From Tubiluchus corallicola (lineage: Eukaryota; Priapulida; Priapulimorpha; Priapulimorphida; Tubiluchidae): a stretch of DNA of 64,000 nt. Shown piece by piece: positions 30,558 through 58,345 of this stretch. Under the pieces are notes generated by a model that was given only the letters and a program-made list of their open reading frames with translations, did not search any database and had not been told where the DNA came from. The stretch spans positions 510,447 through 574,446 of the forward strand of contig JAQGDQ010000013.1 of the NCBI GenBank assembly GCA_030141605.1, written 5' to 3'. Both the position numbers and the translations under genes were made by a program. Position 1 is the stretch's first letter. Every line of letters starts with the position of its first letter.

Positions 30558-30583
30558 CTGAAAAAAAATGAAGAAAAGATTAA

Positions 30584-36698: not shown

Positions 36699-39600
36699 AT
36701 GGCGGTGTACCATCAGTTGCTTTTAAGACTTCTGCTACTCCTTTTTGCGGCATGTTCCACCACTTTTAGTGATGGTGTTCATAATAAAATTTATTATGAT
36801 TTTACTGGCAAAGCTGCTTGCGTTCGATTACTAAATTCTACCCATCAAATAGGATGTCAATCGTCTCGAAAAGGAAACGTGGGCGTGCTTTTTTTGGTAA
36901 AATGTATTTTCAGTGTTCTTTTAAAAAATTGGTTCATTTTTCTGCACGACTGCAGGTATAATAAAGCAAACTATCTGCATTTTAACGTAGCGAAGATCTG
37001 TGAAATCGTTACTGCTAATACGCTGATAGACTGTACGTAGTAACAACCTAAAAATTGAATAATAGAAGAACGTAACGACTGCATAAATTATTTTTAAGTG
37101 CGTTTGTTGAGTGATCACAGCGTGTGGTTGGTGTCACAAGTTAAAGTTAGCCAGTAAGTGGATGGGGAGAAAAGTAACTGCCAGGTTTAGTGTTCACTGT
37201 GGGTGGTTTTATCTTCATACTGATTTTGGCTGTTTAATGAGTAAGGGATGTATTATTCACATCCGTACATGGACGAGATACCTCTGCTGGTGTGTTACTT
37301 TAGAATGGTGTCATAAAATAGTGAACCAAAGTTTGGTTTTGCTACAAGTCCTGTCATTGAGTACTGAATTTCGGCTTGTATTGCGCCAAAGTGTACAAAA
37401 ACGTCTTGTGGAACAGTTCTTTTAGGAATCAGTTGCATTTAGCAGTTATATTTACAGCAGTATTTACATTGTCACATTTGTCTGTTACATCGTTATTTTA
37501 ATTTAAGTGGTGCAGTTGTAGTTTAGAAAATAATTATTGTTACTATGGACTTGGTAGAAGTCAAACATGCTGAAAAAGACGAATGTGACTGTGTAGTGAA
37601 ACTTCATATGAATTGCCAACAATCAACACTTGAATAGCCATTAGAAGCTTCAGTAATTTTGTTAATACACTAATAATTCTTAATTGTCAAAAATTAGTGA
37701 AAGTGATCATGATAGGCCGGAATTTAATCCTTACAGCCAATGTAGTAATTAGGAACTTATAGCCTGTGATGATCAGTGGGGTAGAGTAGTCTGCTAGTTA
37801 TGTTCACCTTATACATGAAAGTTGCTTGGCTTTGTGCCAACTTTTCATGTCGTCTTTCGGACAAGTTTGGTTAAAAAATATAATCATCTGTGTTCATTCT
37901 ATTATTAATAATAACATCTAAATTAAAGTTATGACAAGCTAATTTGCTGTTTCTAATTTTTACTGCTTTTTTGATGCAGGTGAGAAATGAAACAGATCTA
38001 AAACTGATTAGTGATTCACCTCATAAGCCGTACACTGCAATAGTACCATCAGCTTTCTTCAAATTATCAACGCTCAAAGCATTAAATGAATCAGACAAAG
38101 TAAACGGAGTACTCGTGATTGAAGCAAACAATTCATACATTCCTTACAAGCGGCCAGACATGTTCTCGGCAGATTACAGTTGCCCCAATAATCGCTATGA
38201 CATGTACAGAAAATTAGCTCAGGAAAAGTACGGCAACTGTCAAGTTGTGCAATGGAACAATCCATATGGAGATGGCATACACTTTTATGACTGGCACATA
38301 CCTATATTTGTTTTAACTAATTCCACAGAGATTGCTTCTTTGATCGACTGTTACAACAACTTCAATTTACCGGTTGGGGGCAAGTCGCCGGATTGGCCAC
38401 TTTGTTCAGCACATTTAGGAGACAGAATGAACGCTGCCGTAAACTCCGAGACATGCTTACGGAGGCACTCCCTTGGTGCCAATATGTTGCGGTTTAGCCC
38501 TGGTTACTGTGATCCACTCGGTGATCGAAACATCTGGGCTGCATTAACGCCAATGAGTAAATCAAATCCTCCGACTAAAAACTCTGTTATTGTTGTAGCG
38601 GCACGCATGGACGCATTTAGCATGTTTGATAAATTATATCCAGGTGCCAACTCGGCTGTCACAGGTATTGTTACTGTACTAGCGGCAGCTGAGGCACTTA
38701 GTAAATACAAGCATCAGTTAACTGCTAAGAACATCTTATTTACTTTTTTCCAAGGAGAAGCTTTCGACTATATTGGATCAAGTCGAATGGTATATGATAT
38801 GAGAAATGACGCATTTCCAAATAAGTTAGTCGACGCCATGTCAGAACAGACCGCGCTGATTAATTTGGAGCACATTTCCACTATTGTAGAGGTAAGTCAA
38901 ATTGGTAAAATTGACTTACAAAAGAAAATTGTATGGGCTCACACTGATCCAATAACAACTAAAGATAGTCCTGTGGTTAATGCTTCAGTCACTAATATTG
39001 TAAGTTTGCTAAAACAGTATGCTAAGGAAGTGAATCTAGCGGTGAGTGAGCCGTCTGAATCGCAGCCTTTACCACCTGCTTCAACACAGAGTTTTTTGAA
39101 GTTTGCGCAGCACATAGCTGGAGTTGTATTAGCTGATCATGAAAGTTCGTACACTAATAAATTCTACAATAGCCGATTGGACACCGCAGAAAATATCGAA
39201 TTGAGGTTTGAAGATGACAGTTACGATACAGTTACTGAGCAAAGTAGAAGGCTTACCGATGTTGCAACTGTCTTAGCACGTACATTGTACTCTTTGGCTT
39301 TGGACAATAGTACAGCAGCTAGCAGCATTTCAGCCGATGTCAAAACGGTTACACACCTGCTGTATTGTTTTCTTTATAAAAACAATTGCGAGTTACTACG
39401 AACTGTGGTGGAGCCAGATCAGGGTGATAAATTGCGCAATGGCTCTTCGTCTTTCTACGTAACTGTAAGCAGCGTTATAAACCAACACACCATATTTGTC
39501 CGTAATCTGCTAGCATATTTTCTTGGCGACAGAACTCCAGTTGAAAGCAAAGACGAATGTAAACAAGACAAATCCCAACAACTGTTTACCTATTTATTTA

Positions 39601-39905
39601 TGAGAGGCCCGAAACCGAATGGGACGACGCAGCATTATTGCGTAAAGAGTTCAACTAATTTTTCACATGCTACCTATGCCGTTATTGATGATTTAGAATC
39701 CTATAATTTCTCTTCAAACGAGTATCCCATCTGGACGGAAAGCGTGTGGTCTACATTTACTGTAAGAATATTTCTGCAACCCAGCTGGCAGCATGAAGTT
39801 ATGACATTGTCTGCAGGTTTAGTCGTTCTTGCGATTGCCGCACCATTTGTGTATATTGTACAGAAAAATTTGGACACCCTTTTTACCCCACGTTCAGACA
39901 GATAG
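36699..39905 (+). CDS. Ncstn: Nicastrin, gamma-secretase subunit, two exons
   Basis: Type I membrane glycoprotein of the gamma-secretase complex (with presenilin, APH-1 and PEN-2), which cleaves Notch at S3. Exons 36699-36896 and 37980-39905 join in phase 0 to give 707 residues, against 709 in human. A signal peptide follows the start (LLLRLLLLLFAA). Family text: CVRLLNSTHQIGCQSS at the N-terminus, QGEAFDYIGSSRMVYDM around residues 325-341 (Glu 326 corresponds to human Glu333 of the DYIGS region), SGVVLADH-like and LDTAENI further on, ESVW near the end, and one C-terminal membrane helix (about 39795-39860). An in-frame ATG at 36681 would add six residues; 36699 is preferred for its context (AACATGG) and signal-peptide position. 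Nearly the whole protein is on one exon. Confidence 0.96.
36897..37979 (+). other. Nicastrin intron
   Basis: The donor GTAAAA follows 36896, and the acceptor TTGATGCAG ends at 37979. Short frames inside show no family resemblance. Confidence 0.85.
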
Positions 39906-40574
39906 GACATGATTAGAATTCACGTTACTAGCCAATTACTCGTACTGTGATTTTACTTTCTTGTATATAATTTAATGTCGTTCCTGATTTTCTGTAAATC
40001 TGTAACTTATTCTAGATTGTGTACTATATACGTATCTTTCATGATTTTGCGCTAATGTGAAGTTAATGCATTTAGTGCTGTATAAGACAGACTCTAGAGA
40101 AAATGTCGGACCAGAAGAACTTGAGTCTTAAATAACCCCAAATTTTTTCTTTTTATCAACCAGATGCTTGCTTAGAACTGCTTCGTTATAATGTTTGTAA
40201 ATATTTGTATAATTAAATTTAATTAGTCCACTCTTGGTGCTGTATGATACAATAATTTGTGTAAATAACAGAGATAATATAGATATCCAGGGGTAATAGA
40301 AACTGTTGTTGCATTATATTAAACTTGTTTGTGGTGATGACTTACTTAGGCAGTAGGCTGGCCGATTCTTATAGATATGAAATCGATCAAGAACATCGGT
40401 CTGTCCAGTAAAATGACATAAAACGTAACTTTACATTAAGAACAAAATCAGTGGTGATTACACTACTGTTTGTGCGTGTACCGCAATGTCATAATGTGTG
40501 CACTGGTGTCCAAAACAGCACAAAGCAAAGGCTTCCATTTACAGATTTTATCAATGGCACCATTACTTTGCATT

Positions 40575-41240
40575 GTTATATGTATGCTGGCATAGCAACA
40601 TCATCCATAAATCAGCAATTAAATTTTTCTAGTTATTCACATATTCTGAATCTCTATTTCATGAGGATTGTTTTCATACCAAGCTCACTGCTCTACGTTA
40701 TTTCTAAGCTGAGATAATCCACGTTGAAGTTGAGGTGCACATTACACACTGAAAAACGTAACCTTGAGGAAATCACTGTTAAAGTCAGCCATTGTTTTTT
40801 GTCACGTTTCTACAAAACACTTAGCAACCGTACAAATATTGGTTGCAATGGACTTTGTAAGAACACATTGAAGTTATGTTTAAATCCAGTACATGGCTCT
40901 TCCAGGCAAAGATCTGGGCTCGGCAAAAGAAAAAACCCGAAGCAAAATGATTACTTCCAGGAGTTACTATCAGAGTTTGAAAATTCGAGTTTTTTACCAT
41001 TGTGGTACTAGTTTCTAGACAGAAAACGGAGTACGGAGTTATAAAATTAAATTTTTTGTGTTTTAGAACACTTTATAATATGATACTAGAAATTCAAAAG
41101 TGCAATATATTTAGTGTTTTATAACATATGAAAAATTGACATTTGACCCAATTTTTGGTGCATTCTACTTTGAAGCAGCATAGCTTAGTTTTAACTGTGC
41201 GAGCTTATGGATGGTTTTGGTAAGCAAGCACACATATGAT
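40575..41240. repeat. Interspersed repeat family 3, copy 1
   Basis: Colinear with 46020-46680 and in part with 49785-50215. Shared blocks: TATGCTGGCATAGCAA, TTTTTCTAGTTATTCACATAT, TTTCTAAGCTGAGATAATCC, CCATTGTTTTTTGTC, AAATTGACATTTGACC and TTATGGATGGTTTTGGT. No coding capacity and no clear terminal repeats. Confidence 0.85.
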
Positions 41241-41804
41241 ACCAAACAATTTGGGTAACACCCCAAAATTGTTTCTTTCTGCATATCTCTTGATGAACTC
41301 ACAACTATAGACACTGCATGGTTGCTAGGCAACAACAGTACATTGTCTCATTTATTGATGTACCAAGGTAAATTACTTATGTGTCAGTGAAAGTTTTAGT
41401 CATCAAAAATAACAATACCATCATAGACACTAGTATTATAGATATTAACAAAATTACTGCAAACTGTACTGTGTGGTAGGATTGGCAGATGTTTTTATTA
41501 CTTATAAAAATATTTTCCACAGTGTGATTAGTATAATTAACGACAATGATTAAATCAACTCATTATACAGCTACAGGTAACAGTTCAGCAACATCATGAT
41601 TTGGCACCTTTGATTATTTTTATATAAATGAAAATATAAAGTTAAAACCTGAACATTATCACAACAATCATCACCTTCTAGGCTTCTAAAAGACGAAATT
41701 CAACAACTTGTTTTACTGTCACTGGTCAATTCATACAATCTGACAAGGTTCTATAATATATTATTGTAAGTAGCATTATACATATACATAAATACAGTCA
41801 AACC

Positions 41805-42397
41805 TCATAATACTGCACCCCTGTTATACCGCAAAATTTGTTTGCTGCCTGCAAAATGGCCAGGAACAAAGCGGCTGTATTAAACTATATTTAAAAATAA
41901 CCTATTATACTGATTCTGCTACCTGCCATCAAAATTAATAATTATACGTTCAACGGATTGCTAGCTAGACCAGCGATGTTGATATTACACCAGCCTCCAC
42001 TGGTTATATTACGCTGACCAGTTTACAAGCTGTACTGTACATTGTACATCACAGCTCTGATATTATTGTCAATGCGCCACGCAGTCATAATAACAAATGA
42101 CAGAAAACACATGGCTCTCTTTTCACCGCAAGAGACGTTTTTTTACTTGTTTTCTAAAAATCATCTAAGCAAATTCCTGCAAGAAACATGTACTCATGAC
42201 TCAACCTTTTTTTACATACACATGATTAGTGCAGCAATACCTTTAGAGTAAAATGGAGGACTCTAAGCTGTGTACACTTGTCTGACTGTTCTGTGATTTG
42301 TCGATAGCAAAATTTAACACCTCGTTATAATGCCGAACTCGCTGTAACGCCAACTTTTTTCCAGTCCGAAAGTGGCCGGTATAAAGAGATTTGACTG
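41805..42397. mobile_element. Tigger/pogo-like MITE flanked by TA
   Basis: Left end CAGTCAAACCTCATAATACTG, mirrored at the right by CGTTATAATGC...AGAGATTTGACTG. TA is present at 41803-41804 and 42398-42399. The interior has no transposase frame. CAGT(C/T)-initial ends with TA targets are typical of Tigger-type elements. Confidence 0.8.
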
Positions 42398-42460
42398 TAT
42401 ACCTATGATGAATGAACAGGTTTGTATGTAAATGACCAGAACAGATTCCCTGAAATTTGG

Positions 42461-42466
42461 TTTATT
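42461..42466 (-). terminator. Polyadenylation signal after D2HGDH last exon B
   Basis: TTTATT on the + strand (AATAAA on -), about 30 bases past the stop codon of the 42495-42917 exon. Confidence 0.65.
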
Positions 42467-42494
42467 TGAGCACAAGTGATTCCTTAATTTCCTT

Positions 42495-42917
42495 TTAATC
42501 ATCCGGTAAAGTCTTGTATGGGTTGAGTATGCCTTTAGGATCCATAACTTTTTTAATTTCTTTCATTAAAGTCACGGCCAAACGTTTCTTACTGTAATAT
42601 ATAAAATCTTTCTTATGTAGGCCCAAACCGTGCTCAGCGCTAATACTGCCATTTTTCTCAGACACCCACTCAAACACGTAGGGTTCCATCTTATCCACTG
42701 CCGACTTATCAAACTGCGGCGAAGTCAAGTTCAAGTGAAGATTGCCGTCGCCCAAGTGACCGTACCCGCAACAAGTTAGCACCGAATCACCAAGTCGCTC
42801 CCGCATATCCACCACAAGGTTGTAGAATTCCGGAGTCGGAATGGAAACGTCGTATTTGTAGGTGTAACCTTCATGCATCAGAGCTTCGACAATTCTTTCT
42901 CGAAGAGACCAAAGTGC
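42495..42917 (-). CDS. D2hgdh: D2HGDH last exon B (canonical)
   Basis: 140 residues plus stop, acceptor TTTTAG at 42919-42918, phase 0. Starts [13 protein letters not shown], contains [23 protein letters not shown] and SAEHGLGL, and ends [15 protein letters not shown]. All the residues expected of the catalytic metal site (the His of GHLGDGN, the His of LHLN and the Glu of AEHG) are present. It is followed by a polyadenylation signal. Confidence 0.95.
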   Translation of the reverse strand, partial: ALWSLRERIVEALMHEGYTYKYDVSIPTPEFYNLVVDMRERLGDSVLTCCGYGHLGDGNLHLNLTSPQFDKSAVDKMEPYVFEWVSEKNGSISAEHGLGLHKKDFIYYSKKRLAVTLMKEIKKVMDPKGILNPYKTLPDD

Positions 42918-45900
42918 CTAAAATAGAACAGAAATTATTCCTAACGTACAGCACAAACCTAAGAAGTAATTTACAATGGTGGTTCTTGATAACAAAACAA
43001 ACTCCAACGTGCCGGCAAAACGAAGAACGGTTTTTTTGCATAGGGACCAATATTAGGGTGAGCATTCTGTACCAGAAAGCAAATTCGAATCGAATTGAAT
43101 TTTTGACTTTCGTACTCGAATCAAACTGAATTTCCAGATTTCGAATCTGGATTGAATTAAATTTTAAAGATTTTCGAAGAAATTTGCATATCATAATTTA
43201 AAAACAGCCTCCTAAACAGCATGTGCAACACTTGATTTTGTTCTGCAGTAAAAACACCAATAATTTGCTTAAAACTTGTGCACAGAAATCATGTTAAATT
43301 GGGTTGATTGCGCAATGTTTAGGAAGGAGTTTACAATTCCCCACACAATTCAAATACCCTAACCCCAATCCTAACCATAACCCCAAATCTAACCCTAATC
43401 CCAATCTACTTCACAAATTGATTACTTTTGTGTATGGAATTGTAAACTTTAGCTGAAATGGGAAGTAAATAGGTGTGTAAATACATTAAACATTAAATAC
43501 ATTACATCAACACTCACAGAGACTGTGTATGATAACAAATGCAAAATAAATCGAAAAGTTATTGATTAGGAATACTTTCTGTTCTTATATTAGACACTTT
43601 CGGCTCTTCGAGAAAGAATTGTGAAAGCTGTAATGGAAAATTATGAGGAAAACGCATAACACCTGCATCTTCACAAGCAGTAGACCAAGACAGTATAATA
43701 CGCACAAAAAAAAAACATCTCTTGACTTGAATTAATTTCAACAAAGCGACAAACCTAGAGTTAATGTTACTAGACCTTAAAAAACATGTATAGTAATGCT
43801 ACATTCTTTTTGTAGACTATCCAGAAGCATTTTTTAATTGATAACGTTAAAACTGCATTTCATTAACTGGTTGCAAAACCTGAACAGCTGCAGTAACCAT
43901 AAAATTTGAAACAACTGTTTATGCTCTATGAGAATATAGAAAAATTACGAACACTTTACATTTTACTGTTTATTTTATAAGAAAGAAGTAAGAATATTAT
44001 GAAGAATTTCTTAATCTCCCAGTTACAAGAGACTCCACTAATGCTGGACATCATAAATTACTCACGGTACAGATCTGTAAGAACGACTTCTATCACACTT
44101 ACACAAATGCTTGTCTAGTACACTTAACCTTTGACCTTTTCACAATCATCATCTATCACCAGAACTGTGAAAAGGCTTATTTAAAATATCTCATGATGCT
44201 CAAGTGATAGAAAATTACTATAAGAGTTTAAAATAATTATTTAAATAAAAATTATATAGCACATAATTATATAAAATAAGAGACACTTTCAAGTGCCCAT
44301 TAAGCTAGTATTTATATACAACATGTGTTTAAAGTGTTGAAAATACAATGTAGTAAAACAATCATAATAGTATCACAATTACATATCACATTATTGATTT
44401 CATCACATTATGCTTTGTATCACAAGAAATCTTTTGTAAAGTTTGAATTTACGTAACGAAAAAGGAAGATACAGTAAGTCCTCGCTTAATGACGCTGATA
44501 CGTTCCATCAAAATGCAAAGTTAAGCGAAACGTCATTAAACGAAGCAAAGACTTCGATAGAAAGTAATGTAAAAGAATTGGGATACGTTCCAGAGATAAA
44601 AATCAAAGCTGCTTAAATCATATAAATTATACGTTTTATGAATTTTACTCAATTTTTCTACTAATTAATTTCTGTTTGCTTGCTTGGAATCACCTATGTC
44701 TTACTTACCTAGCTAGCGGTTTCTCTTTAGTTGACTTTAAAAAGTCTAGGCAGCGGGTAAATAATAAACACTGCAGCAGAGTCAAAGCCAAGCCTGGGGC
44801 AACCTTGGCAATTTCATCTATAAACTTAGAATGCACTAGTCTGGTTGCTATAACAACAGGTTGCAGGTAAAATTCTTTCACATAAGATTTGCTTCCAGGG
44901 CTCAGCATACACGAATGGCTAACATTGGTGGTCAGTCGGGAAGCAAAAACATATTTACTTATATTGTAATTGCAGTGCTTATGCTGCTAGTGCATTTCAG
45001 AACAGAATAATGCAATATGTACTGCTTCAAGGCATCAAATTGAGTAAAAAAGTTGTTGATAAAATAAAAATTGGCTTTCAGCAAAGCAACAAAAATTGTC
45101 GTTAAAAGGAAACGGTGCGTCGTTAACTAAGAAACAAGGTGTCAAATGTTCAGAGTGGTACGTCGCTAAACGGGGAGTCGTTAAGTTAGAAACAAGGTGT
45201 CAAACGTTCAGAGTGGTACGTCGCTAAACGGGGAGTCGTTAAGTTAGAAACAAGTTGTCAAATGTTCAGAGTGGTACGTCGCTAAACGGGGAGTCGTTAA
45301 GTTAGAAACAAGGTGTCAAACGTTCAGAGTGGTACGTCGCTAAACGGGAAGTCGTTAAGCAAGCACTTACTGTAACTTGTACAAAATCAATCATCTTTCA
45401 TAAGAGTTTGTCCCGTGCCGGCAGGACTATTAGAGAAGTGAACAGTTCTTGTGTAAAATTCTCACTTCTCTGGCAAAGTCTTGTAAGGATTCAATATGCC
45501 TTTTGGATCCACGATTGCCTTAACTCTTTTCATCAAATTTACGGCTAATTTTGATTTGTTGTAATATATGTAATCCCTGTGAAAACCTATTCCGTGCTCA
45601 GCACTAATACTGCCGTTTCTCTTCACTACCCACTCATATATGTAAGGCACCATTTTATCGAAGGCCAATTTATCGAACTGTGGCGAAGTCATGTTCAAGT
45701 GAAGGTTGCCATCGACCACATGACCAAAACCGCAGCAAGTCAGTACTGACTCGCTAAGACGTTCTCGCATGTCTAAGACTAGATTATAGAATTGTAAAGT
45801 TGGTAAACACACATCAAACTTGTATCTGTAACCTTCATGAAACAAAGCTTCACCAATTCTATCTCTAAGAGCCCAAATTGCCTACATAAGAGAAAAATGA

Positions 45901-47396
45901 TGTTAAATTTTAATCATTGTAGCTAACAATATTAGATGTGGATTGTAAATTTAAACAAAAAAAATGTTATACAGTAAATCGTTTGATTTTTTTCCATTCA
46001 CAGCTTCTTCACATGTGCAGACCTCATGGTATTGCAATGATATATGTATGCTTGCATAGCAAAATCGTCCATAAGTCGGCAATGAAGTTTTTCTAGTTAT
46101 TCACATATCCTGAATCATTTTGATACCAAGCTCATCGCTCTATATTATTTCTAAGCTGAGAAAATCCAAGTTGACGTGCAAGTTACGCACTGAAAAACAT
46201 AACCTTGAGAAAATCGCTAATAAATTACCATTGTTTTTTGTCGCGTTTCTACAAAACACTTAGCAACCGCACAAATGTTGGATTTTGCAAGAACACGTTG
46301 ATGTTATGTTTAAATCCAACTGATGGCTCTTTCTGGCAAAGATCTGGGCTTAGTAACAAGAAAAAACCCAAAGGAAAATGATGGCTTCCACGAGCTACTA
46401 CTGGGGTTTGAACATACAAGTTTTTTACAATTGTAATACTAGTTTCTACACAGAAAAGTGAGTAGAGGGTTATAAAATTAGATTTTTAGTATTTTTTAAA
46501 CATTTTCTTGATAATTTCATGCTAGAATATTAAAGTCCAGTGTATTTAGCATTTGTTTTTATAAAAAACAAAGAATTGACATTTGACCAAATTTTTTTGG
46601 TATATTCTACTTCAAAGCCAAGTGTCAACTATATGCTGACTTATGGACGGTTTTGGTTTGCAAGCACACATAACATTTATAACTGAAACACTTGAGTTGT
46701 TTTCCCCATTTGTATGTTGTTGTGTACAAGTAAACACACATTGTTGTCTAGTTGGTCGTTAGTTAAACTTCGGATAACCTTTCTTATTTAAAACGTTAAG
46801 GCATAAAAATTTAATTAGAAGTTTATATCATTTTGGATCAACTTTATAACTTTTGCTAATAAAAAAACGTCCACAGAACTGTCATACAACAAACGTCTCG
46901 AGTATTTCATTGCAAAATTTTAAAGCGCATGTTTGTCAACCTATTTGTGCAAACATTTTACACCAGCCTGTCAACAATGAAGTTACACTGAACATCAACA
47001 GTAGGAAAAGTGGCACATTAACCCTTTCACTATGGAAGACGGCACACTGCCGTCTATGTTTTTCATGCAAGGGATGGAAAGAGGTAGACTGTCGCCCAAC
47101 CTGAGCACTGAGCGCAGTCACCCAGGCCTGTTTATTTCACTGCTACGGCCATACAAAACATTGTAGAAAAGTTTAACAGCCGTGGGATTGGAGTTGCTTC
47201 GCAACAAGTAACGCTAACCAACCAATCAGCATCTAAAGCCAGGTGCATTCCACAATACTGTACTGTAAGGTATGTTCCCACGCTTGTAGATCGTTGATGA
47301 AACGTATGTTTAGTTGTTCCACGTTTTTATAAAATGAATGGGTATTACGAATTAGTATTGTGGTTTCTAAACATAAGTATGTGCTTATTTATGAGG

Positions 47397-47427
<31 letters not shown>

Positions 47428-50400
47428 CGTGTATGTGTGTGTGTGCATGTCTAGAAATAAAACTAATATTTAATATTAGCACTTAATATACAGGCAACTA
47501 TTTGTTTATTTACAAGATTCTGCTTTAGTAACACACCACAAGAAGTTATTGTCAAATGTGGCCAGTTAAAAAACAACTACATAGTGAAAGGGTTAAGTGA
47601 ATGTGGACAGAATTAGAAAACAAGTACAAAAGCACAAATACAAGCACACCTTTTGCTGCAAACTATCTTGAGCAACTGTGCCATCAGCTACACAACCTTC
47701 GTTCATGGCAACTTCCAGAAACTCGTTAAGCTTTTCCTCGTCATGCTCTGCCTTAGAACCAGACGTTTCAATCAGAATGTAAAAATTGTTGTCCGATATG
47801 GGATTCCTGTAAAAGTGATATACATGTATAATTATTAACACTCCGTTTAATTTTAAATTGTTGATTTTATTGTAGAAATTTGCAATCTATTAATTGTAAA
47901 ACGAATACAATGTTCACAGATGATGGTGGAATGTAGAATAACTGTATAACTTGTTTCGTTACCATAAAAATTCTCTCCACACACAGTGGCATAAAAGCAA
48001 CAAACAATTTACTGAAAAAACCTTGCACTCAAAAACATAACCTTTAACATTGCTGTCTTTTGATCAACTGGAACTTGCATGCCTGAGAGAATAAAGCTCT
48101 AATCACACGACCAGACATACAAGTTCCTATTGGAAGGTACATTAAGTTCATGCATACAGACCATAAAAGGAAAGGTCACCTACACTCTACAGACTACTAG
48201 TTAAACCAAAATCAAAGTCTACTTGGCTTCTTTGATAGCAGAATAAAGATTATTGGTTTACAGAAAGCTGCGTTATAATGTTATAAATTTTCTCTATTAA
48301 AATTTGAATAAGAGAGTTAGAACCAGAATTAAAGCATGAAATTAACAACCTAACTACTCTGATTAATGACTATTTCTAAAAGCAAAAGGAAACAATATTT
48401 AGAAACTCTCTGACAAACTTTGTACAATTAGAGTGTAGATGGCAGCATAGACTAAATCAGTACTTAAGTGTAGTAGACTGACAATTAAATGGATCACATA
48501 ATACCACAATCGCGTACTTGGTACAATATGCGACATTTATATTGAATTTGATTTTATATTGACGCTAGGGTAAATAATTTTTATGTTAATCATTGTCAGA
48601 ACTGTAAATCCTCGACACCTTGTTTGTGCCACTGTGAAAATGTTCATCAAAGGCGGGAAAGAAGCCCAAAGCTACGTACTGCATTTAACTATCAAAGAAG
48701 CCATACGTGGAAGCGAAACGTTCCAACGTTTGTTCTCGTGATGCTCTGCTTAATGAAATTTTAATTTAAAGTTCGACAAAAAATTGATAGAACTCAGCCA
48801 GAGATAGAGATAAGAGATAGACAATAAGAGAGGGAGCAACGATAACTTCAATTGGTAAGTCCCCATGGTGTTACGACACGATGACTGAAGCTGTATAAAC
48901 ACACAAATAACTCTGCCCGGAGTTTAAGATGTTTAACTAAAAGAGTGACTCTAATTCATTCTTCAATTTATACTGCACACTGTAACAGTAGCGCCAGTTA
49001 ATAGAAAAAGCTTTTCACAATTGCTTAACCCAACAAAAATGTTTCATTGAACTAAAAACACGATAAAGTGTCCAAACAAGAATTAAATTGGCAAAACTGC
49101 GCCTGCAACTACTACGGCACTCCTAGCAATAAGGGAAATCAAATGTGTGTTTAATTTCACACACAACTTAATGCCAAATGCATTAGCGTAGTGTTATGTT
49201 GACATTTGCATCTCTCCATTTCTGTCCCCCTTTATTTTGGCACCTGAGAATTGTTGCCACAGGATACTTTTCTTCTCTGACGCTTTTCTTAAAATTTTGG
49301 AGATAAAACTATTTACTTATAAAAATATGGTCGAATTAGTAAACAGTCAAAATGCATCATAGAAATCTGTCAATGACTTTTGCACTTTTTACGACTTCAT
49401 GATCATTTGCAATGAAAAGATATTAGTGAGTTGCGATTTTTTTTCTGTAAAAAAAGGAGGGAAAGCATGCTACATGCTAGCAGTTGTAACTAATAGAATT
49501 TGGGGAGCTTCTAATTTGCAGGTGCTAACGCTTACGGGCACTTCTAACACTTCTAACACTTCTAGCACTTCTTAAGTTACTAACACTTCTAAACACACTA
49601 TTTTTTGGTTTTGGGAAAGTTTTAGAAATTTTCCAAATAAATACTTTATACATGCCAAGGAAATGTTCTTGTGCTAAATTTCTTCAACGCGGGAGTTGCC
49701 AAAAATATGATCCACCAAGGGTCAAGCAAAGGTCAGTTAAACAAATTTCCAAGATAAGCTCAAATTCAGAAAACGAAAAATGTGTGCTTATATAGCAAAA
49801 ACGTCCAGCAATTAAACTTTTCTAGTTATTCTCATATCTAGAATCTCATTTCACGAGGATAATTTTGGTACCAAACTCAAAGCTTTATATAATTTCTAAG
49901 CTGAGATAATCCACGTTGAAGTTGAGATGCAGGCTGTGTACTCCGTATACTTAAAGTCAGCCATTGTTTTTTATCACGTCTCTACAGTACTGCCTTCAGA
50001 AGTTGGACAAAGTGGGTAAAGGGTTACAAAAACAATTTTTTTAGTACATTTCGAACATTTTTCTGACGATTTGACGCTAGCATATAAAAGTTAATATATT
50101 TAGCATTAATTATAAAAAGAAGAAATTGACATTTGACCCAGTTTTTGATGCATTGTACTTTGAAACATCGTAATGTAGTTTCAACGTGCCGTCTTGATGC
50201 TTAAAGAAATATGTTCATAAAGAAGCTCAAACCCACAAATAGCTTCCCCAAAATACAATAAACGTTAAAAAAACTTTGCTTACTTGAGATGTAAATACTT
50301 TGAAACAGCTTTCATTGAAGCGCTGTCTTCCATTTCAAATGCGGATAAAATTTCGCCTAACATTCTTTTGGCTATGCTAAGTGTTTTTAAGACGTCGCTG

Positions 50401-53400
50401 AATTTTTCACAACCTAAAACATGTAGAAAAGAGTATATATTCAATTTAGAAAGAACAGGCACTACACTTACAGCAATATGTCTAAATTCCACTACGTATA
50501 TCTTATATATTTATCAAGAAAAGAAAATTTTAAAAACATTACGATGTCATTTTATGATTTTTCTGTTAGTGGGTCATAAAAACACTTTATAATCCATACC
50601 TAGGAAAGCTACATTAATAGCCGATGAACGACGCGGACAAAGTATGGCCACCTTTGTTACAATTCCTAATGTTCCTTCAGATCCAATCAGAAGCTGTTTC
50701 ATGTCGTAACCCGTGTTATCTTTTCTCACTGTTGACATGCAGTCGAGTATTTCGCCGTTACCCAACACCTACGAAAACTGACGGTGAAGGTTCCCAATGC
50801 AAATTTCATTATCATGAGAATGGCCAACATGATGAGTGCAGCATAAGTGTTTGTTAGTGCATACAAAAACTACAAGTAATAATACAGAACAAGAAATTGC
50901 ATAAAAGTTTAGCTGGAGCACTGGTGAATCTATCACATTCTCAGTTTTTAGTGCAGAAGCGTCTTAAGTCTTGCACAATCTGCATTCTTAATGAATAAGT
51001 CTCGTGTGACCTGCAATCTTAATGAAGAAGTCTCGCGTGACCTGCAATCGTAATGAATAAGTCTCACGTGACCATCAATCTTAATGAATAAGTCTTTCGT
51101 GACCTGCAATCTTAATGAATAAGTCTCGTGTGACCATCAATCTTAATGAATAAGCCTCGCGAGAGACGTTAGATCTGATCTGCAGAAAAAACCTGAAGCC
51201 ACAATTTCGGAAACGACTAAAGATAAATTTTATTCTGGTAATGTGTCAGTTTTTAAAATGCACAAGGCCTATCCAGTTTTATTTTTTAATAGCCAAATCA
51301 ATAATGTGCAAACATTCTACATAGTCTTTCCTTACTTTTTTAATGCTGGTAATAAGCTAACAGACGTATATAATGTAATAACATCATAGCAACTGCAGCT
51401 TTTAAGGTTAGTAAGCAGAGTATAATGTGTTGATTACATGAACAACGGCTTAACATCACCTAGTCTTCCATGCTGTGAGAATTGTAGTTACAATGATTGT
51501 AAAAGAACTTCTTTCTTTGACTTAAACTACAAAACTTAAAGCTGGGATATTAAACTTTAATGTTTAAATATTTGAAAATAGCCAGAACATGTGGCCAAAA
51601 CTTTGCAAAATAAACATTATCATTGACTAATCCAATTAACTGAATGCAGTTCAAACTCACAGCCTCTAAGCCAAGAACGTTGCCATGTAAAGAACCATAT
51701 CTTAGCAGTCTTAGTCCACCAGCACATGTAGAAACATTTCCTCCAATATGACAACTTGCTTTTGCTCCTAAATCTAATGGCATCATTAGAGAATAATCGG
51801 CCAGGTAATTGTCAAGAGTTTCCAAGATGCATCCTGACTGACAAATAAGAACACCTAAAACAAAATATGTACAGTAAGTCCTCACTTAAATATGTTAAAC
51901 ATTTGACACATTTTTCTCACTTAACGATGCATGTTTTATTTTAACGAAGATTTTTTACTTTGTTCAAGACCAATTTTACTTTATCAACAACTTTTTACCA
52001 AATTTGCAGCATTGGAATAGCACATATTGCGTCATTCTGTTCTAAAATCACACTAGCAATGTAAAACAGTACAGTTATTATAACTTTTTCATCCCTATTC
52101 ACTACTAAATGCTACCCATTTGTATCAAGCAAGATGTATTTGCAATTTATACAGGCAGCTGAGTGTAAACTTCATGCTAGGGAATTTGATTGCAACCTGT
52201 TGCTACAGCAATCAGACTGAGTACCTTGTTCCAAAGTCACTCCAAGCTATGCTTTCACTATTGTTAACATCATTTTATTTCGAATATACTCTACACAAGT
52301 AATTAAAAAAAGTGTTAGCATTCAAGTTGTAGTGTTCACCTGCTAACTGCCTAGGCTTTCAAAGAGAAACCACTAGCTAGGTATTGATAAGACAGACAAA
52401 CAGTGGCAGCTCATAGCTAAAATTAGTGGGGGTGCTGCTTCAGAAAATGTTTATCCATTGTTAATAGTGTGTAAAACGAAACAAACATATGCAATTTTAA
52501 GGTTGTAACTGTAATTTTAAACAAGTTAACATACAAAATTCTCTGGGATGCCAGGAGGCCGTGATTAAAATATTTAAATTTTAAGCGCAACGCACGATGA
52601 GTCAAAATCTAATTCTACACTTTATCACATTCAAGAATATGCCGGTATACGGTTTCTAAGCGTGTGACAACTGACAATACACACTGCATGAGCGACAGTA
52701 GTCTCTCTATCTAAACTACAGCGTCTTATCTCAGATATTTACGCATGGCCGCATTCGCAAAACAGCCAAGCAAACAGTACTACCTTCATATGCTCTCGTT
52801 CCGTACAAGTATAAAGAAAGAATTAAAGAAAAAAGGCTCATTATACTGAATATTATCAATAATAATGAGTGAAAATAAGGGGTGCTGCACTTCCACAGTA
52901 CCTATACAGGAACCGCCACTGCAGATAAGTGGTTTCACGCAATCAGAAAGAAATTAATCAGTAGAAATATGAATAAAACCCACAAAATGTTTAATTTATA
53001 TGAATTTAGCAACATAAATTTTTGCTTTTAGAACACATCTCAATTCTTTGTTTTCTATAGAAGTCTTGGCATCAATTAACATAGCATTTTGCTTTAACGT
53101 ACTGGCATCGTTAAGCGAGGAATTCATAAATCATGTACACTTGTTATAAGAACAATGTTAGCAATGCTTTGTCTTACAGTTTACGAAATTTTTTTGTCTC
53201 ATGTCTTATTATATCATTAATTACAGAAAAGCTGCTTCTTTGAAAGAACACACTTGCCACTTATTCTAATACCTTTGAATTAAATTAAAATTTTCAAAAA
53301 ATTTGAACATGTTTGCACCAAGCCACGAAATTATAAATGCTCAGGAGTACCAAAAGCCTCCATTGCATTTAACTGTTGCTTTGAAGACACCATTTTAGCC

Positions 53401-56400
53401 TTCTACTTTTTAGTTCCCATTTTGCTGTCTTGCTTCGGTAATTCTTTATTCATGTAATAAACAACATATTCATGGAACAAGCAACATGTCTGTTTAATTT
53501 TGTTTGTAAATTCAATTTGGTGATTTTTGGTGAAATGGCGCATCCAGTCAATATAAAGCCATCAAGTTCACTCTGTTCTTGTAGAATTTGACTAGGTGAA
53601 AGCAGCGACTCAAAATAAGCTATATCATCTTTGTTTAGTTCAGCAAAGTCGCTTCGATGAATATGTGGATATCTAACGCTTGTTAAATCAACGTTAATAA
53701 CTGTTCTAGACAAACAAAAATTCACAGGTTACGTCATTTTGACTTCCAATCAGAAAAAAATGTTGCATTACCCATAGTTTACATTTAACTTTGGAAACAT
53801 GACAAAACAGCTAAGTGGTCACTGAGTGTGCATAACAGCAAAAGTTAAGCAACACTGATAGTTGTCAGGAAATAAGCTGGAAAAAATCACCAAAAACTAG
53901 AAATAAAATTCAAACTAATAAACTGTAATAAGAAAATTAGACTCACCAGACACTTCATCTAAGCTGATGACTTGATTAAGAAGTTGCGTAGAAATAATAA
54001 TCTCGTCAAAGACGGGCACACTACCGCCAACAAGTCCAGTGTTGCCACCCTGGGGAACAACTGCAAGGTTTCTACCATGACAATATTTCACAATCTCTGA
54101 GACCTGCTCAGTAGTTTTAGGTTTTAATACCAAACTACTTGCACCTTCAAAAGAAAAAAAATCTTAGCTAAATGTGAATACAACGCAAATAAAGAATTCT
54201 CTGATGTGTAAAAATACATAAGAGTCACTAACATCTGACAATATGAATGTGATGAATTAAACGCAAACTACAATTGCAATAAATCAATCAAAATGAATGT
54301 GTAAGAAGTTGAATATTTACTACGTTTCTTTGCATATAACATACAATTTACATGCACAATTAAGTTATGGGAATCATAAAATGATAATATGTTACAGTAC
54401 AAATTATAAGTACAGTAAACTCTCGCTTAATGACTCCACATTTAGCGACATCTCGCTTTAACAACGCTGATAATTTGAAACCTTTTTTCACTTAACGACG
54501 CACTGTTTCGCTTTTATGACATTTTTTTACTTTGCTCGAAGCCAATTTTTATTTTGTCAACAACATTTTAACTAATTTCATGCATTCAAAAGCACATATT
54601 GTGTTATTTTCTTCTAAAAACGTGCTAATAATGTAAACAGTGCTTATACAAGTATTTATTTTCACTTCTCGACTGACCACTAAATGTTAGCTGCTTGGCG
54701 TTATCAAGTGAGACCTCGGAGCAAGAAATTTTGCCTGCAACCTGTTGCTATAGTAACCAGGCTAGATCAAATTCTCAATGTCACCCAGCGCTTGGGTTAG
54801 ACTCTGCTGTAATGTTTATTGTTTAACTGCGGCCTAAACTTAAATGTTAACAAAAGAGAAATCACTAGCTAGCTATGTAGGTGGCTTCAAGCAAGCAGAA
54901 AGAAATTAGTCAATAGAAATATGAATAAAACTCATAAAATCTTTAATTTATATGATTTAAGCAGCATTGATTTTTGCCTCTAGAACGAATCTCAATTCTT
55001 TCACATAACTTTCTATGGAAGTCTTGGCTTCGTTTAACATCTAGTTTTGCTGGAGTGCATAGCGTCGTTAAGCGAGGACTTACTGTAATACATACATAAA
55101 TTAGTTAAAAGGATTATCAACACTGATATTATTTCTTCGTTTGTAAATCAGAGAAACTGAAATTTATTAGCAGCAGTCAAATACAGTACACAAACAATGT
55201 CAGGTTCACTACGATGTTGATTACCACAAACTATTATACTAAAAAAAATGCGATTTCTATCAAAATTAGTTAAGTTTGAACACTGATTTAGAAAGGACAT
55301 AGTACAAAATATGCTAATTGCAGTAGCACATAGTACAAAATATGCTAATTGCAGTAGCGCATAGTACAAAATACGCTAATTGCAGTAGCACATAGTACAA
55401 AATGTGCTAATTGTAGTAGCACATAGTACAAAATATGCTAATTGCAGTAGTGCATAGTACAAAATATGCTAATTGCAGTAGCACATAGTACAAAATATGC
55501 TAATTGCAGTAGGACATAGTACAAAATATGCTAATTGCAGTAGGACATAGTACAAAATGTGCTAATTGTAGTAGCACATAGTACAAAATATGCTAATTGC
55601 AGTAATGCATAGTACAAAATATGCTAATTGCAGTAGCACATAGTACAAAATATGCTAATTGCAGTAGCACATAGTACAAAATATGCTAATTGCAGTAGGA
55701 CATAGTACAAAATGTGCTAATTGTAGTAGCACATAGTACAAAATATGCTCACATAGTACAAAATATGCTAATTGCAGTAGACATAGTACAAAATTGCAAT
55801 TGAGTAGACATAGTACAAAATATGCTAATTGCAGTAGCACATAGTACAAAATATGCTAATTGCAGTAGGACATAGTACAAAATATGCTAATTGCAGTAGG
55901 ACATAGTACAAAATATGCTAATTGCAGTAGCACATAGTACAAAATATGCTAATTGCAGTATTGTCAATCTTTCTTTACAAACATTGCGACTGTTTGGCAG
56001 CTAGATTAATAAAAGATTCAATTTCAGCAATACAAGTACCTCATGCCATGTGTGAATTTTTCGAAAGCAACAAGACACAGGGTAAAACTTTTCAAAATTC
56101 CATATTTCAACATTTATAATTGTTATATATTTATCAGATAAGTTAAGACACCCGTAAACTGAGCAGGAAAATCATAGAAGCAATTTTAACAAAGCACTAT
56201 TATCTGACAAGAGCTTTTTATTTTTAAATGCATTTGTGAAGTTCTTGTCAGAAGCTGAAATAGAGCTATACAAACAGAAACAAAATATTTTAACAATTCA
56301 AGAGTGGAACACTAAACGTTTTAACAAATGCAAAAAATTCCATTTCATAATATACCTTTCCAATGGCGCATCCAGTCAATATTAAAGCCATCAAGTTCAC

Positions 56401-58345
56401 TCTGTTCTTGTAAAATTTGACTAGGTGAAAGCAGCGACTCAAAATAAGCTATATCATCTTTGTTCAGTTCAGCAAAGTCGCTTCGATGAATATGTGGATA
56501 TCTAACGCTCGTTAAATCAACGTTAATGACTGTCCTAGACAAACAAAACGTCATTTTGACTTCCAATCAGAAAATGTTGCATTACCCATAGTTTACATTT
56601 AACTTTGGAAACATGACAAAACAGCTAAGTGGTCACTGAGTGTGCATAACAGCAAAAGTTAAGCAACACTGATAGTTGTCAGGAAATAAGCTGGTGATTG
56701 TCAAAAAAATGCATCTAACATCAATCGTAATGCTGTATTTGGCTGTTTACATCATTGAGAAGAGTAGGTTTGAATGCAGGTAAGACACTGCTACTGCTTT
56801 TACAGAGGATTATCATTGATAACGAAGTAGATGCTGGTGCTGCTACACCTATATTGTGTAGGCTTTGCTGTTGTTTATTGGATCTGACTTGCAAAGTTCA
56901 GAGCTTTTTGTTTTTAAAAGATTCTCAGCATGTCTTTACTGTCAATACCATCTTCAATATCTTTTATTTGCTATCTAAACCAGTAGGAGGAACAGCAACT
57001 GTTACATATACAGTTTGAAAAATTGCAGCAGTAGCTCTAACGTCATCACAATTACTGTACAGAAATTTACACTTTTGACCTTATGTTTAGTACCGGGTTA
57101 CAATGATAACAACACAACAGCATCAATTACTTATAAGAAAACCGGACAATTGATTAGACTCAATCTCGTTTTAATTTACTGTTAAAAATATACATTTTCT
57201 ACTCTATAAAAGTTACCAATTGTTTCTAATATTTGCCTAACTAACTTGTAAAGTGAATTAACGACAATTGAACATGGCTACCGCTTATGTCACAAGCTAA
57301 CCACAGTTTGTGCAATGGCGGGGATCTTCCTCCATATCAAGTACGTTAGTGTAAGCCAGGGGTGTGCAAATTGCGGCCCGCGGGCCACTTGCGGCCCGCC
57401 GAGAGAATTTGTGCAGCCCGCGAAGAGATTTGTCAACCTAATGAAAGTGCGGTCAGGGCGATTAATTGAGTGTATTCAGCTGAAGTCCGTGCCACGATCC
57501 CAAAGATAGTGCGGGTAGTTTTTTCTACTAGATCAGATGCCATTAACCCTTACAAGATGGTTGTAGCTTAATGTTACTGTAATACACAGACTGTGTGATA
57601 CACATTACTAATATGCATTGTAATGAAATTATCACTGTCTGTCCTGAAAGTAGAAATATATGGTTTGTAATATAAATTTTAATAACTTCTAAAATAGTTT
57701 CTTGAGTGTAGTAGTAATGATGTACGCAGGTATCGTCATTAGGCCTCGTCATCGTAAAAAACTCGTTATTAGGCCTTTCTGTACTTGGCTCCTTGATCAA
57801 ACTGCCTGTGGCCCGCAGGAATTGCGGGAAAGTTTAATGTGGCCCGGCTAGTCAGATAATTTGTACACCTTTGGTGTAAGCAAAGATTGCGATAAGACGC
57901 TGATGTGACGTCATGAAAAAATCTCTATATCACAGTGACATCATAGATGAACATTGCAGTTCATGATCATGTTTATCACGGCACCACGTCTATTTATCGG
58001 CCAAGCGAATGTGACAAAAGGTGCCACTGCTAGTCTTACTTAATGGATTCGCTGAGCCGTGTGTAGCCTTGAAAGTTTAACAAAATTCAACTTTTCAATA
58101 TTTTAAAACAAACTTTATTTTGAACTAATGTCTACACAATCGTCCAGTTTTCCTTTAAGGCAGAGGAAAATTCTGAATGCTTTCACAATTTTCTTGAAAA
58201 CTTTTTTCACAAAATGTGACAAGCACAACCTTATTTGTGAGGTAGAAAAGGTTTTATTCATTAAACGCCCGAAGGACGATCGATTTATCCTAGTACAATG
58301 GCGGATGTTCCAAGCAGCAAATCTGAGAACCTGTTTAACAAACAT
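42495..58345 (-). CDS. D2hgdh: D-2-hydroxyglutarate dehydrogenase, mitochondrial (D2HGDH)
   Basis: FAD enzyme of the mitochondrial matrix that oxidises D-2-hydroxyglutarate to 2-oxoglutarate and passes electrons to ETF. Exons on the - strand, 5' to 3': 58345-58230 (candidate presequence), 56534-56356, 54144-53947, 51854-51661, 50768-50600, 50413-50284, 47806-47650, then last exon B 42917-42495 or last exon A 45881-45462. All joins keep phase. With B the protein has 521 residues, equal to the human length; with A it has 520. FAD-binding_4 motifs: [43 protein letters not shown] and [13 protein letters not shown]. The C-terminal FAD-oxidase domain has [11 protein letters not shown] and SAEHG, the metal and substrate site. 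The introns are packed with MITEs and tandem repeats. Confidence 0.94.
43055..43275. repeat. Interspersed TTCGAAT repeat (family 4), copy 3
   Basis: Same layout and orientation as 16170-16390: AGGGTGAGCATT start, CGAATCGAATTGAATTT, TTTTAAAGATTTTCG, then CTTGATTTTGTTCTGCAGTAAAAAC. Confidence 0.7.
43329..43447. mobile_element. Short inverted-repeat element with CCCTAA-type core, copy 2
   Basis: GTTTACAATTCCCCACACAA at the left and TTTTGTGTATGGAATTGTAAAC at the right form an inverted repeat. The core is a run of degenerate telomere-like units (CCTAACC, ACCCTAA, CCCAATC). Confidence 0.8.
43560..44471 (-). other. D2HGDH intron segment with a family 1 transposon fragment
   Basis: Mostly featureless AT-rich sequence. 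44110-44185 is an inverted one-end fragment of DNA transposon family 1 (TTAACCTTTGACC...AACTGTGAAAAGGCTTA). Confidence 0.65.
44472..45372. mobile_element. Tigger/pogo-like MITE (family 5), copy 1, with internal tandem repeat
   Basis: Ends CAGTAAGTCCTCGCTTAATG and CGTTAAGCAAGCACTTACTG, with TA on both sides (44470-44471, 45373-45374). It shares internal text with 51872-53125 and 54413-55085. A 58-base tandem array (45129-45361) has grown near its right end. Confidence 0.85.
45129..45361. repeat. 58-bp tandem repeat, four copies, inside a MITE
   Basis: Units start at about 45129, 45188, 45246 and 45304, each with AGAAACAAG(G/T)TGTCAAA and GGTACGTCGCTAAACGGG. The unit is the MITE terminus (CGTTAAG...) multiplied. 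Confidence 0.95.
45462..45881 (-). CDS. D2hgdh: D2HGDH last exon A (duplicate, alternative)
   Basis: 139 residues plus stop, no frameshift or internal stop, acceptor TATGTAG and phase 0 as in exon B, so it can splice to 47650 in the same way. It reads [45 protein letters not shown] and ends [15 protein letters not shown]. The two middle residues of GHLGDGN are V-V, and the copy is one residue shorter near HR-DYIYY. No AATAAA or ATTAAA is seen on the - strand between its stop and the transposon at 45372. It is either a functional alternative last exon or a young duplicate still intact. Confidence 0.85.
   Translation of the reverse strand, partial: AIWALRDRIGEALFHEGYRYKFDVCLPTLQFYNLVLDMRERLSESVLTCCGFGHVVDGNLHLNMTSPQFDKLAFDKMVPYIYEWVVKRNGSISAEHGIGFHRDYIYYNKSKLAVNLMKRVKAIVDPKGILNPYKTLPEK
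46020..46680. repeat. Interspersed repeat family 3, copy 2
   Basis: Colinear and in the same orientation as 40575-41240 for nearly the full length, for example CTAAGCTGAGAAAATCCAAG and TTATGGACGGTTTTGGT. Confidence 0.85.
46690..47649 (-). other. D2HGDH intron segment with GT microsatellite
   Basis: Holds a (GT)n run at about 47397-47447. No exon is recognised. Confidence 0.7.
47650..47806 (-). CDS. D2hgdh: D2HGDH exon 7
   Basis: Reads [17 protein letters not shown]...[22 protein letters not shown], matching the human FYVLIETSGS segment of the C-terminal domain. Acceptor TTTTACAG, donor GTGTGC, phase 0 at its end, so it can join either last exon. Confidence 0.92.
47810..49780 (-). other. D2HGDH intron, nothing recognised
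   Basis: About 2 kb of AT-rich intron with a small (TTCTAACAC)n run near 49540-49590. No repeat boundary was assigned. Confidence 0.65.
49785..50215. repeat. Interspersed repeat family 3, partial copy 3
   Basis: Shares TTTTCTAGTTATTCTCATAT, TTTCTAAGCTGAGATAATCC, CCATTGTTTTTTATC and AAATTGACATTTGACCC with the other two copies. The middle is shortened. Confidence 0.75.
50284..50413 (-). CDS. D2hgdh: D2HGDH exon 6
   Basis: Reads [29 protein letters not shown], matching human [23 protein letters not shown]. Acceptor GTTTTAG, donor GTAAGC, ends in phase 2. Confidence 0.92.
50600..50768 (-). CDS. D2hgdh: D2HGDH exon 5
   Basis: Reads [20 protein letters not shown], then [19 protein letters not shown], the FAD-contacting core of the FAD_binding_4 domain. 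Donor GTATGG after CTAG. Confidence 0.94.
50980..51165. repeat. 31-bp tandem repeat, about six copies
   Basis: The unit is close to GTGACC(TG/AT)CAATCTTAATGAATAAGTCTCGC. It lies in the D2HGDH intron between exons 5 and 4. The unit sequence is unrelated to the 31-base satellite at 55295-55960. Confidence 0.93.
51661..51854 (-). CDS. D2hgdh: D2HGDH exon 4
   Basis: Reads [35 protein letters not shown] and [14 protein letters not shown], nearly identical to the human segment. Acceptor TTTTAG, donor GTGAGT. Confidence 0.95.
51872..53125. mobile_element. Tigger/pogo-like MITE (family 5), copy 2, interrupted by a hAT-like insertion
   Basis: Left end CAGTAAGTCCTCACTTAA after TA (51870-51871). The right end decays near CGTTAAGCGAGGAATTCATA. 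Its interior matches 54413-55085 on both sides of the insertion at 52401-52921. Confidence 0.75.
52401..52921. mobile_element. hAT-like non-autonomous element nested in a MITE
   Basis: Ends CAGTGGCAGCTCATAGC and GGAACCGCCACTG (CAGTGGCGGTTCC read inward), with inner GGGGGTGCTGC/GGGGTGCTGCAC. Flanking octamers CAGACAAA (52393-52400) and CAGATAAG (52922-52929) match at 6 of 8. The host element resumes with GAAACCACTAGCTAG before and AAGTGGTTTCACGCAATCAG after. Confidence 0.75.
53534..53880 (-). pseudogene. Duplicated, broken copy of D2HGDH exon 2 and its upstream intron
   Basis: Nearly identical to 56362-56694 over about 340 bases. The exon copy has lost one base (ATATAAAG against ATATTAAAG), shifting the frame, and the similarity stops just before the donor, which is missing. 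The flanking intron is also copied, with a ~14-base insertion (TTCACAGGTTACG). It lies downstream of exon 3, so it could not be used in order. The low divergence means the event is recent. Confidence 0.92.
53947..54144 (-). CDS. D2hgdh: D2HGDH exon 3
   Basis: Reads [20 protein letters not shown], then [20 protein letters not shown], the pyrophosphate-binding loop of the FAD domain. Acceptor TTTTGAAG, donor GTGAGT. Confidence 0.95.
54413..55085. mobile_element. Tigger/pogo-like MITE (family 5), copy 3, complete
   Basis: 673 bases with ends CAGTAAACTCTCGCTTAATG and CGTTAAGCGAGGACTTACTG, and TA on both sides (54411-54412, 55086-55087). This is the cleanest copy of the family here. Confidence 0.87.
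55295..55960. repeat. 31-bp satellite, 22 copies, with five-unit higher-order pattern
   Basis: The unit is close to GCACATAGTACAAAATATGC plus TAATTGCAGTA. I count 22 copies of CATAGTACAAA. The variants TGTGCTAATTGTAG (copies 4, 9, 14), TGCAT (6, 11) and GGACAT (8/9, 14) recur every five units, so amplification later proceeded in blocks of about 155 bases. It lies in the D2HGDH intron between exons 2 and 3. The frame over it ([10 protein letters not shown] repeated) is an artefact. Confidence 0.96.
56356..56534 (-). CDS. D2hgdh: D2HGDH exon 2
   Basis: Reads [20 protein letters not shown], then [12 protein letters not shown] and [10 protein letters not shown], matching the human N-terminal RERYPV...DLAAFERIV...NVDWLRTLRG. 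Acceptor TTGTCTAG at 56536-56535, donor GTATA at 56355-56354. This is the intact copy of the duplicated exon. Confidence 0.94.
57357..57873. mobile_element. hAT non-autonomous element with perfect 8-bp target duplication
   Basis: Ends CAGGGGTGTGCAAATT and AATTTGTACACCTTTG (inverted repeat, CAAAGGTGTACAAATT inward). GTGTAAGC is duplicated exactly at 57349-57356 and 57874-57881. The GC-rich subterminal GCGGCCCGCGGGCC is mirrored by GGCCCGCAGG/GGCCCGGC on the other side. 517 bases, no transposase. It lies in the first D2HGDH intron. Confidence 0.93.
58230..58345 (-). CDS. D2hgdh: D2HGDH exon 1, candidate mitochondrial presequence
   Basis: ATG at 58345-58343 opens 38 codons rich in Arg, Lys, Ser and Phe and without acidic residues ([12 protein letters not shown]..., [20 protein letters not shown]), as expected of a matrix-targeting sequence. 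It ends AAG|GTTGTG, a moderate donor, in phase 2, exactly what exon 2 needs. Using it gives a total length equal to human D2HGDH. No homology can be shown for such a segment, so this rests on composition, phase and length. Confidence 0.55.

Follow-up and report, generated by a model that had tools for sequence, protein, structure and literature searches.

When a gene carries its last coding exon twice in tandem, does it make two proteins, or is one of the copies a relic? The question is raised by the minus strand of a 64-kb window, by which we mean the whole stretch of 64,000 nucleotides analyzed here from the priapulid Tubiluchus corallicola, wherein a D2HGDH gene extends from 56534 to 42495 and its terminal exon is present in tandem as an upstream copy, A, and a downstream copy, B. 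We consider it likely that the two are selected alternative C-termini of this one gene, a composite terminal exon being the simplest form of the arrangement, and the gene can probably make two enzyme forms, as far as its sequence allows one to judge.

Six exons common to both forms were modeled on the minus strand ahead of the duplication. The most 5′ of these, exon a (56356..56534), has an open frame that extends to an upstream ATG, its 5′ limit being uncertain; it is followed by exons b (53947..54144), c (51661..51854), c2 (50600..50768), and d (50284..50413), and by the penultimate exon e (47650..47806), with the donor AAG/gtgtgc. Terminal exon A (45462..45881; 139 codons and a TGA) and terminal exon B (42495..42917; 140 codons and a TAA) each have a phase-0 TAG acceptor, accompanied in A by a pyrimidine-rich tract, and all modeled junctions of the gene are GT-AG. 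A sequence-only reading of this DNA had claimed two intact terminal segments at these positions, either of which could be joined to exon e. Both claims stand, as each segment has an acceptor in phase 0, an open frame, and a stop, and exon e ends in phase 0 with the frame continuing into either; the span from exon a to the stop comes to 482 or 483 codons, stop included, for the two terminal exons.

Both products match human D2HGDH, an FAD-linked oxidase (6lpn; E = 2.5e-49 for B and 2.1e-42 for A), and the Pfam profile FAD-oxidase_C (PF02913) recognizes B with 147.3 bits and A with 126.8 bits against a gathering cut-off of 21.2. The last exon corresponds to positions 106–247 of the 248 in this profile; since it starts at position 106, the isoforms would also have the beginning of the C-terminal domain in common. 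Thus, the earlier claim of a shared FAD domain followed by an alternative exon encoding the whole C-terminal catalytic segment has to be trimmed: the shared FAD part holds, but it is not the whole C-terminal domain that alternates. Over 40000–58000, none of the 4227 Rfam families gave a match at gathering score.

The two copies lie 2.5 kb apart on one contig, and a search of the 343.5-Mb assembly gave no other close copy. They are 72% identical in nucleotides over the exon, and their proteins agree in 98 of 139 aligned columns (71%), one column being an in-frame gap of a single codon that is missing in A. In searches of the assembly, whose match counts are lower bounds, the exon-B protein had at least four matches, of which two are B and A themselves and the other two are remote, at 38–39% identity; the protein of exons a to e had at least ten, comprising the six exons, an exon-a copy, and three remote matches at 25–26%. 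Given that exons a to e occur once each, bar the exon-a copy and the three remote matches, no second D2HGDH gene was found in the assembly search.

A and B are homologous in DNA only from 20 nt ahead of the acceptor, within the intron, to around the stop codon. That the flanks can no longer be aligned suggests that the duplication is old and that A has been constrained for most of its history, the flanks having become saturated, and the coding part not, because the flanks were unselected. A contrast is offered by the copy of exon a at 53508–53806 on the minus strand, between exons b and c, which is recent: it is 88–89% identical to its source, flanks included, with 50 identical encoded residues, and yet it is already frame-shifted near its end and lacks a donor at the matching place, and is thus dead or skipped, whereas the old copies A and B are both intact.

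The substitutions separating the two exons bear the stamp of coding constraint. The 115 differences in the 139 aligned codons are spread over codon positions 1, 2, and 3 as 27, 20, and 68, a bias greater than expected by chance, and when neutral evolution was simulated at 0.65 substitutions per site, just 1 of 1000 runs remained stop-free. A maximum-likelihood fit of a codon model to the pair gave a dN/dS of 0.121 with a dS of about 1.5 (0.03–0.20 across 60 codon bootstraps), and rejected both omega = 1 (p = 3e-16) and omega = 0.5 (p = 4e-8), the latter being about the lowest average that the pair should show had A evolved neutrally ever since the duplication while B stayed under full constraint. 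The NG86 method put dN/dS at 0.075, at a saturated dS of 2.4, and the maximum-likelihood method of Biopython at 0.134. Open frames arising by chance were discounted on the codon-position bias, the neutral simulation, and the dN/dS rejections. The earlier suggestion that both exons have been kept by selection, against which a ratio near 1 would have told, is thus upheld by a ratio of 0.12, and it is well supported that purifying selection long kept both A and B.

A pairwise dN/dS is an average over the entire history of the two copies, and a recent loss of function in A would be compatible with the value obtained. In simulations presupposing a background omega of 0.10, the 41 differing residues in the 139 aligned codons fit a neutral spell covering 0–10% of A's branch, with a spell of 20% yielding a 95% range of 47–68 differing residues. 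When human is taken as the outgroup, 13 single changes (one of them the missing codon) are assigned to A and 6 to B, 22 sites differing in all three; the excess in A, polarized on this one outgroup, is not significant (chi2 2.6).

A further question is whether the alternation touches the part of the enzyme that matters for catalysis. Nine residues line the substrate pocket of the human enzyme, namely R386, T390, K401, Y432, H434, H441, N443, E475, and H476 (PMC7801405), and all nine fall in the alternative exon. Exon B retains eight of them, the exception being T390V, and exon A seven, with T390G and Y432F; those kept by A (R386, K401, H434, H441, N443, E475, and H476) are zinc or substrate residues, and the zinc ligands H434, H441, and E475 and the base H476 are present in both copies (roles from PMC7801405). 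The human enzyme, the closest solved relative by sequence, thus has its zinc and catalytic residues in common with the products of both A and B. In the C5-carboxylate pocket formed by T390, K401, Y432, and N443, three of the four are kept in B (T390V) and two in A (T390G, Y432F). As T390 and Y432 are in contact with the substrate's distal C5 carboxylate (PMC7801405), the contrast between the copies lies where the tail of the substrate is read, and it might affect specificity or rate. The sequence-only reading had proposed isoforms differing in the active-site part, and the differences at pocket residues 390 and 432 agree with isoforms that would do so.

Whether such changes are tolerable can be approached from two sides. 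Human T390 mutants show activity lowered 2.6–3.4-fold, and the Y432 mutant could not be expressed (PMC7801405), from which it follows that A's changes at 390 and 432 may be harmful. Bacterial homologues were also surveyed: at least 555 of 596 listed stretches were confirmed and the best 80 kept, of which 68 entered the residue table, the other 12 being dropped when the script found no open frame of at least 150 aa holding GH..DGN. Any homologue that passes this filter must have H434 and N439, and one of the scan patterns admitted only Y or F at 432 and G or V at 436, such that columns 432, 434, 436, and 439 are biased in the table. Within that bias, F occupies position 432 in 59 of the 68 homologues, and G is found at 390 in 5, suggesting that neither change in A is alien to the fold. 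Since K401 is present in only 47 and N443 in 54 of the 68, some of these homologues may be other 2-hydroxyacid dehydrogenases rather than D2HGDH.

Three further residues set A apart. Beside a zinc ligand, at position 436, its residue is V; G is present here in 66 of the 68 homologues and V in none, though V was allowed by the scan; K482, a K in 66 of 68, is absent from its loop, which is one residue shorter; and S405, an S in 56 of 68, is replaced by C. The first of these is by itself no reason to regard exon A as dead, as the human G436V variant has 87% activity (PMC6619364) and is listed among variants with 69–94% activity (PMC7801405). Across the 32 columns conserved in more than 80% of the 68 bacterial homologues, A matches 28 and B and human 30 each; A breaks three that B keeps (S405C, G436V, and the missing K482), and B breaks one that A keeps (432). 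A may be either a specialized or a somewhat relaxed copy, with its zinc and catalytic residues retained.

How two such exons might be deployed is indicated by their 3′ ends. A polyadenylation signal, AATAAA, lies at 42461..42466 on the minus strand, beginning 29 nt past the stop of B. Past the stop of A, the first AATAAA comes at 1488 nt, with neither AATAAA nor ATTAAA in the 1.48 kb downstream of A and a variant AGTAAA at 503 nt. That each last exon has a 3′ end of its own, as the sequence-only reading would have it, is therefore doubtful. The lack of a near canonical signal at A makes a composite terminal exon the simplest arrangement, and the AATAAA of B is possibly shared by A-type transcripts.

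The history and workings of the locus would then be as follows. An ancient tandem duplication would have copied the terminal exon of D2HGDH, 3′ splice site included, and both copies would have been retained by selection as alternative C-termini of a single gene. Exons a to e would be spliced to either acceptor A or acceptor B: an A-type mRNA would stop in A and run on through exon B as 3′ UTR to the AATAAA of B, and a B-type mRNA would lose A within an intron, the choice of isoform thus being merely a matter of which 3′ splice site is taken. Choosing A would leave the FAD part the same and change the substrate pocket, the A form having, relative to the B form, G for V at 390, F for Y at 432, V for G at 436, and a shorter loop at 482. 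It is from the selection and the anatomy taken together that we infer the use of exon A.

A second element of the locus, one that the sequence-only reading had not anticipated, might bear on this choice. The interval between A and B holds, at 43566..43635 on the plus strand, an inverted duplicate of acceptor B together with the opening 42 nt of exon B; it is identical to its source at 60 of 70 positions and is antisense in the pre-mRNA. Its partner in a stem predicted by RNA folding is acceptor B with the 5′ end of exon B (42876..42945, minus strand). The acceptor-B stretch has three matches in the assembly, namely B, the antisense arm, and A, and the arm pair is the only inverted repeat reported in the window (at least 40 nt, arms within 3 kb). 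With acceptor B the arm has a predicted pairing energy of −84.5 kcal/mol, against a mean of −23.7 and a best value of −42.2 in 741 control windows, and with acceptor A one of −51.9 kcal/mol, against a mean of −23.0 and a best value of −39.8, likewise in 741 windows; by predicted energy, one element can thus pair at both exons beyond chance, as expected of a docking site and its selectors. The minimum-energy fold of 811 nt contains 65 long-range pairs joining the arms in a stem of about 65 bp over acceptor B, a fold of 801 nt has a z of −5.5 against 20 shuffles, none of which was as stable, and in a fold of 3.2 kb the arm pairs with B and not with A. Judged by identity, the arm postdates the A/B duplication; of its 11 differences from B (one a gap), 5 arose in the arm and 2 in B, the remainder being undecided. 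A function of the stem as seen in wobble-preserving change is unsupported, a G-U pair being kept at 4 of the 11 differences, which gives no sign of constraint. It is a possibility, though on balance a doubtful one, that this arm, copied backwards after the exon duplication, folds onto acceptor B, hides it, and steers splicing to A, while also pairing, less strongly, with acceptor A.

The reading of A and B as selected alternative C-termini has to be set against other accounts of the same observations. It is unlikely, albeit consistent with several features of A, that this exon was long an alternative last exon but has recently become non-functional and is starting to decay, B alone being used: the conserved K482 and G436 have been lost, the single changes specific to A are the more numerous, a near canonical polyadenylation signal is missing, and up to about one-tenth of A's branch may have been neutral. 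Yet its frame, stop, acceptor, and phase are all intact, its zinc and catalytic residues have been kept, and the G436V change leaves the human enzyme most of its activity (PMC6619364, PMC7801405). The past constraint on A, strong as it was, could also be explained without alternative splicing if a second D2HGDH gene had once stood in tandem with this one and had lost by deletion every exon but A, its 3′ end, the constraint dating from that time. This we hold to be decidedly improbable, as no remnants of exons a to e were found between A and B, those elsewhere in the assembly are limited to the recent exon-a copy, which lies after exon b, and the three remote matches at 25–26%, and it is unlikely that all other exons would be lost while the last remained intact and still matched the phase of exon e.

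That the pair is an assembly artefact of merged haplotypes is very improbable: the assembly is indeed a draft of 2344 contigs, but a nucleotide identity of 72% without flanking homology is far beyond the usual allelic divergence, and both copies are on one contig at a distance of 2.5 kb. We give as little credence to a view that concerns the stem alone, and is compatible with A and B being alternative C-termini, namely that the duplex of about 65 bp, rather than serving as a splice switch, is mainly a dsRNA substrate (e.g., for A-to-I editing of both acceptor B and the beginning of exon B) or else is inert. A long, near-perfect intramolecular duplex is predicted, the arm is young, and changes that preserve a G-U pair (4 of 11) are not clearly in excess, all of which would suit such a role; on the other hand, it is the sole inverted repeat of such size and spacing in the window, and it sits on one of two competing acceptors.

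Duplicated terminal exons (AOX, Drosophila pip) and the control of duplicated exons by competing RNA structures are phenomena of a known kind, and the D2HGDH locus can be placed among them. In the oyster AOX gene, the terminal exon 10 is duplicated in tandem and both mRNAs have been observed, one of which carries both exon copies and stops in the first; this first copy evolves faster and is altered near functional sites (PMC5589949). The parallel is close in that both genes code for a mitochondrial oxidoreductase with a tandem terminal coding exon and a choice of 3′ splice site, and in both the second copy is more conserved across species and the first altered beside functional sites that are themselves kept in both copies (PMC5589949). 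However, the oyster exon encodes 41 aa as against 139–140 aa in D2HGDH, and its two mRNAs shift in ratio on air exposure; the antisense copy of the acceptor in the D2HGDH locus also has no counterpart mentioned for the oyster gene in the available text of the same source (PMC5589949). Among the literature matches listed, with subscription papers and preprints lying outside this set, there was no alternative catalytic exon for D2HGDH, and oyster AOX was the sole fit for duplicated terminal exons.

Competing RNA structures built of a docking site and selectors control mutually exclusive exons, for example in Dscam (PMC6071210), and such control also applies to the 3′ variable regions of PGRP-LC, the same source reporting duplicated terminal exons for Drosophila pip (PMC9013439). 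As described for Dscam and PGRP-LC, in the D2HGDH locus one element is complementary to both duplicated exons, and the structure could mask or favor a splice site; unlike in those genes, the arm does not go back to an ancestral intronic arm but was formed later, by inverted copying of acceptor B and coding sequence. The term "inverted duplication" was absent from the splice-switch literature matches listed. The inverted acceptor copy may be a new route to a splice switch: if the model is true, a competing RNA structure would have been born when the splice site itself was duplicated in inverted orientation, which is distinct from duplicating one arm of a pre-existing intronic stem. A parallel might also be struck with coq-2 of Caenorhabditis elegans, a quinone-synthesis enzyme with mutually exclusive exons 6a and 6e, the choice of which has been tested genetically and which, like A and B, alter few active-site residues (PMC8659336). 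The same source names D2HGDH as quinone-coupled but not thought active in energy metabolism (PMC8659336).

Were both exons in use, one gene would yield two D2HGDH enzymes with a common FAD part and different substrate pockets, which would bear on how animals tune the removal of D-2-hydroxyglutarate and would add, beside oyster AOX, a further mitochondrial oxidoreductase with a duplicated terminal exon. The locus also offers a clean test case for whether an inverted acceptor copy can work as a splice switch.

Several other features were noted in and around the gene. A tandem repeat of 58 bp occupies 45110–45399, starting about 60 nt past the stop of A, a position that counts against A as a working last exon, and beside this array the gene contains two tandem repeats of 31 bp, at 50934–51181 and 55201–55990. 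An interspersed element of about 400–600 bp is present in three copies (40568–41195, 46032–46596, and 49806–50185), one of which lies in the D2HGDH intron between e and A and one in that between d and e. On the minus strand, a single 547-codon open frame at 28947–30590 codes for an AMP-binding enzyme resembling acyl-CoA synthetases. The plus strand carries Notch at 14034–27534, where the open frames tested encode EGF, LNR, NOD, and ankyrin domains, as well as nicastrin at 37935–39905, its domains falling within one 656-codon open frame. Nicastrin is a component of the protease that cleaves Notch, and the two genes lie here on the same strand about 10 kb apart.
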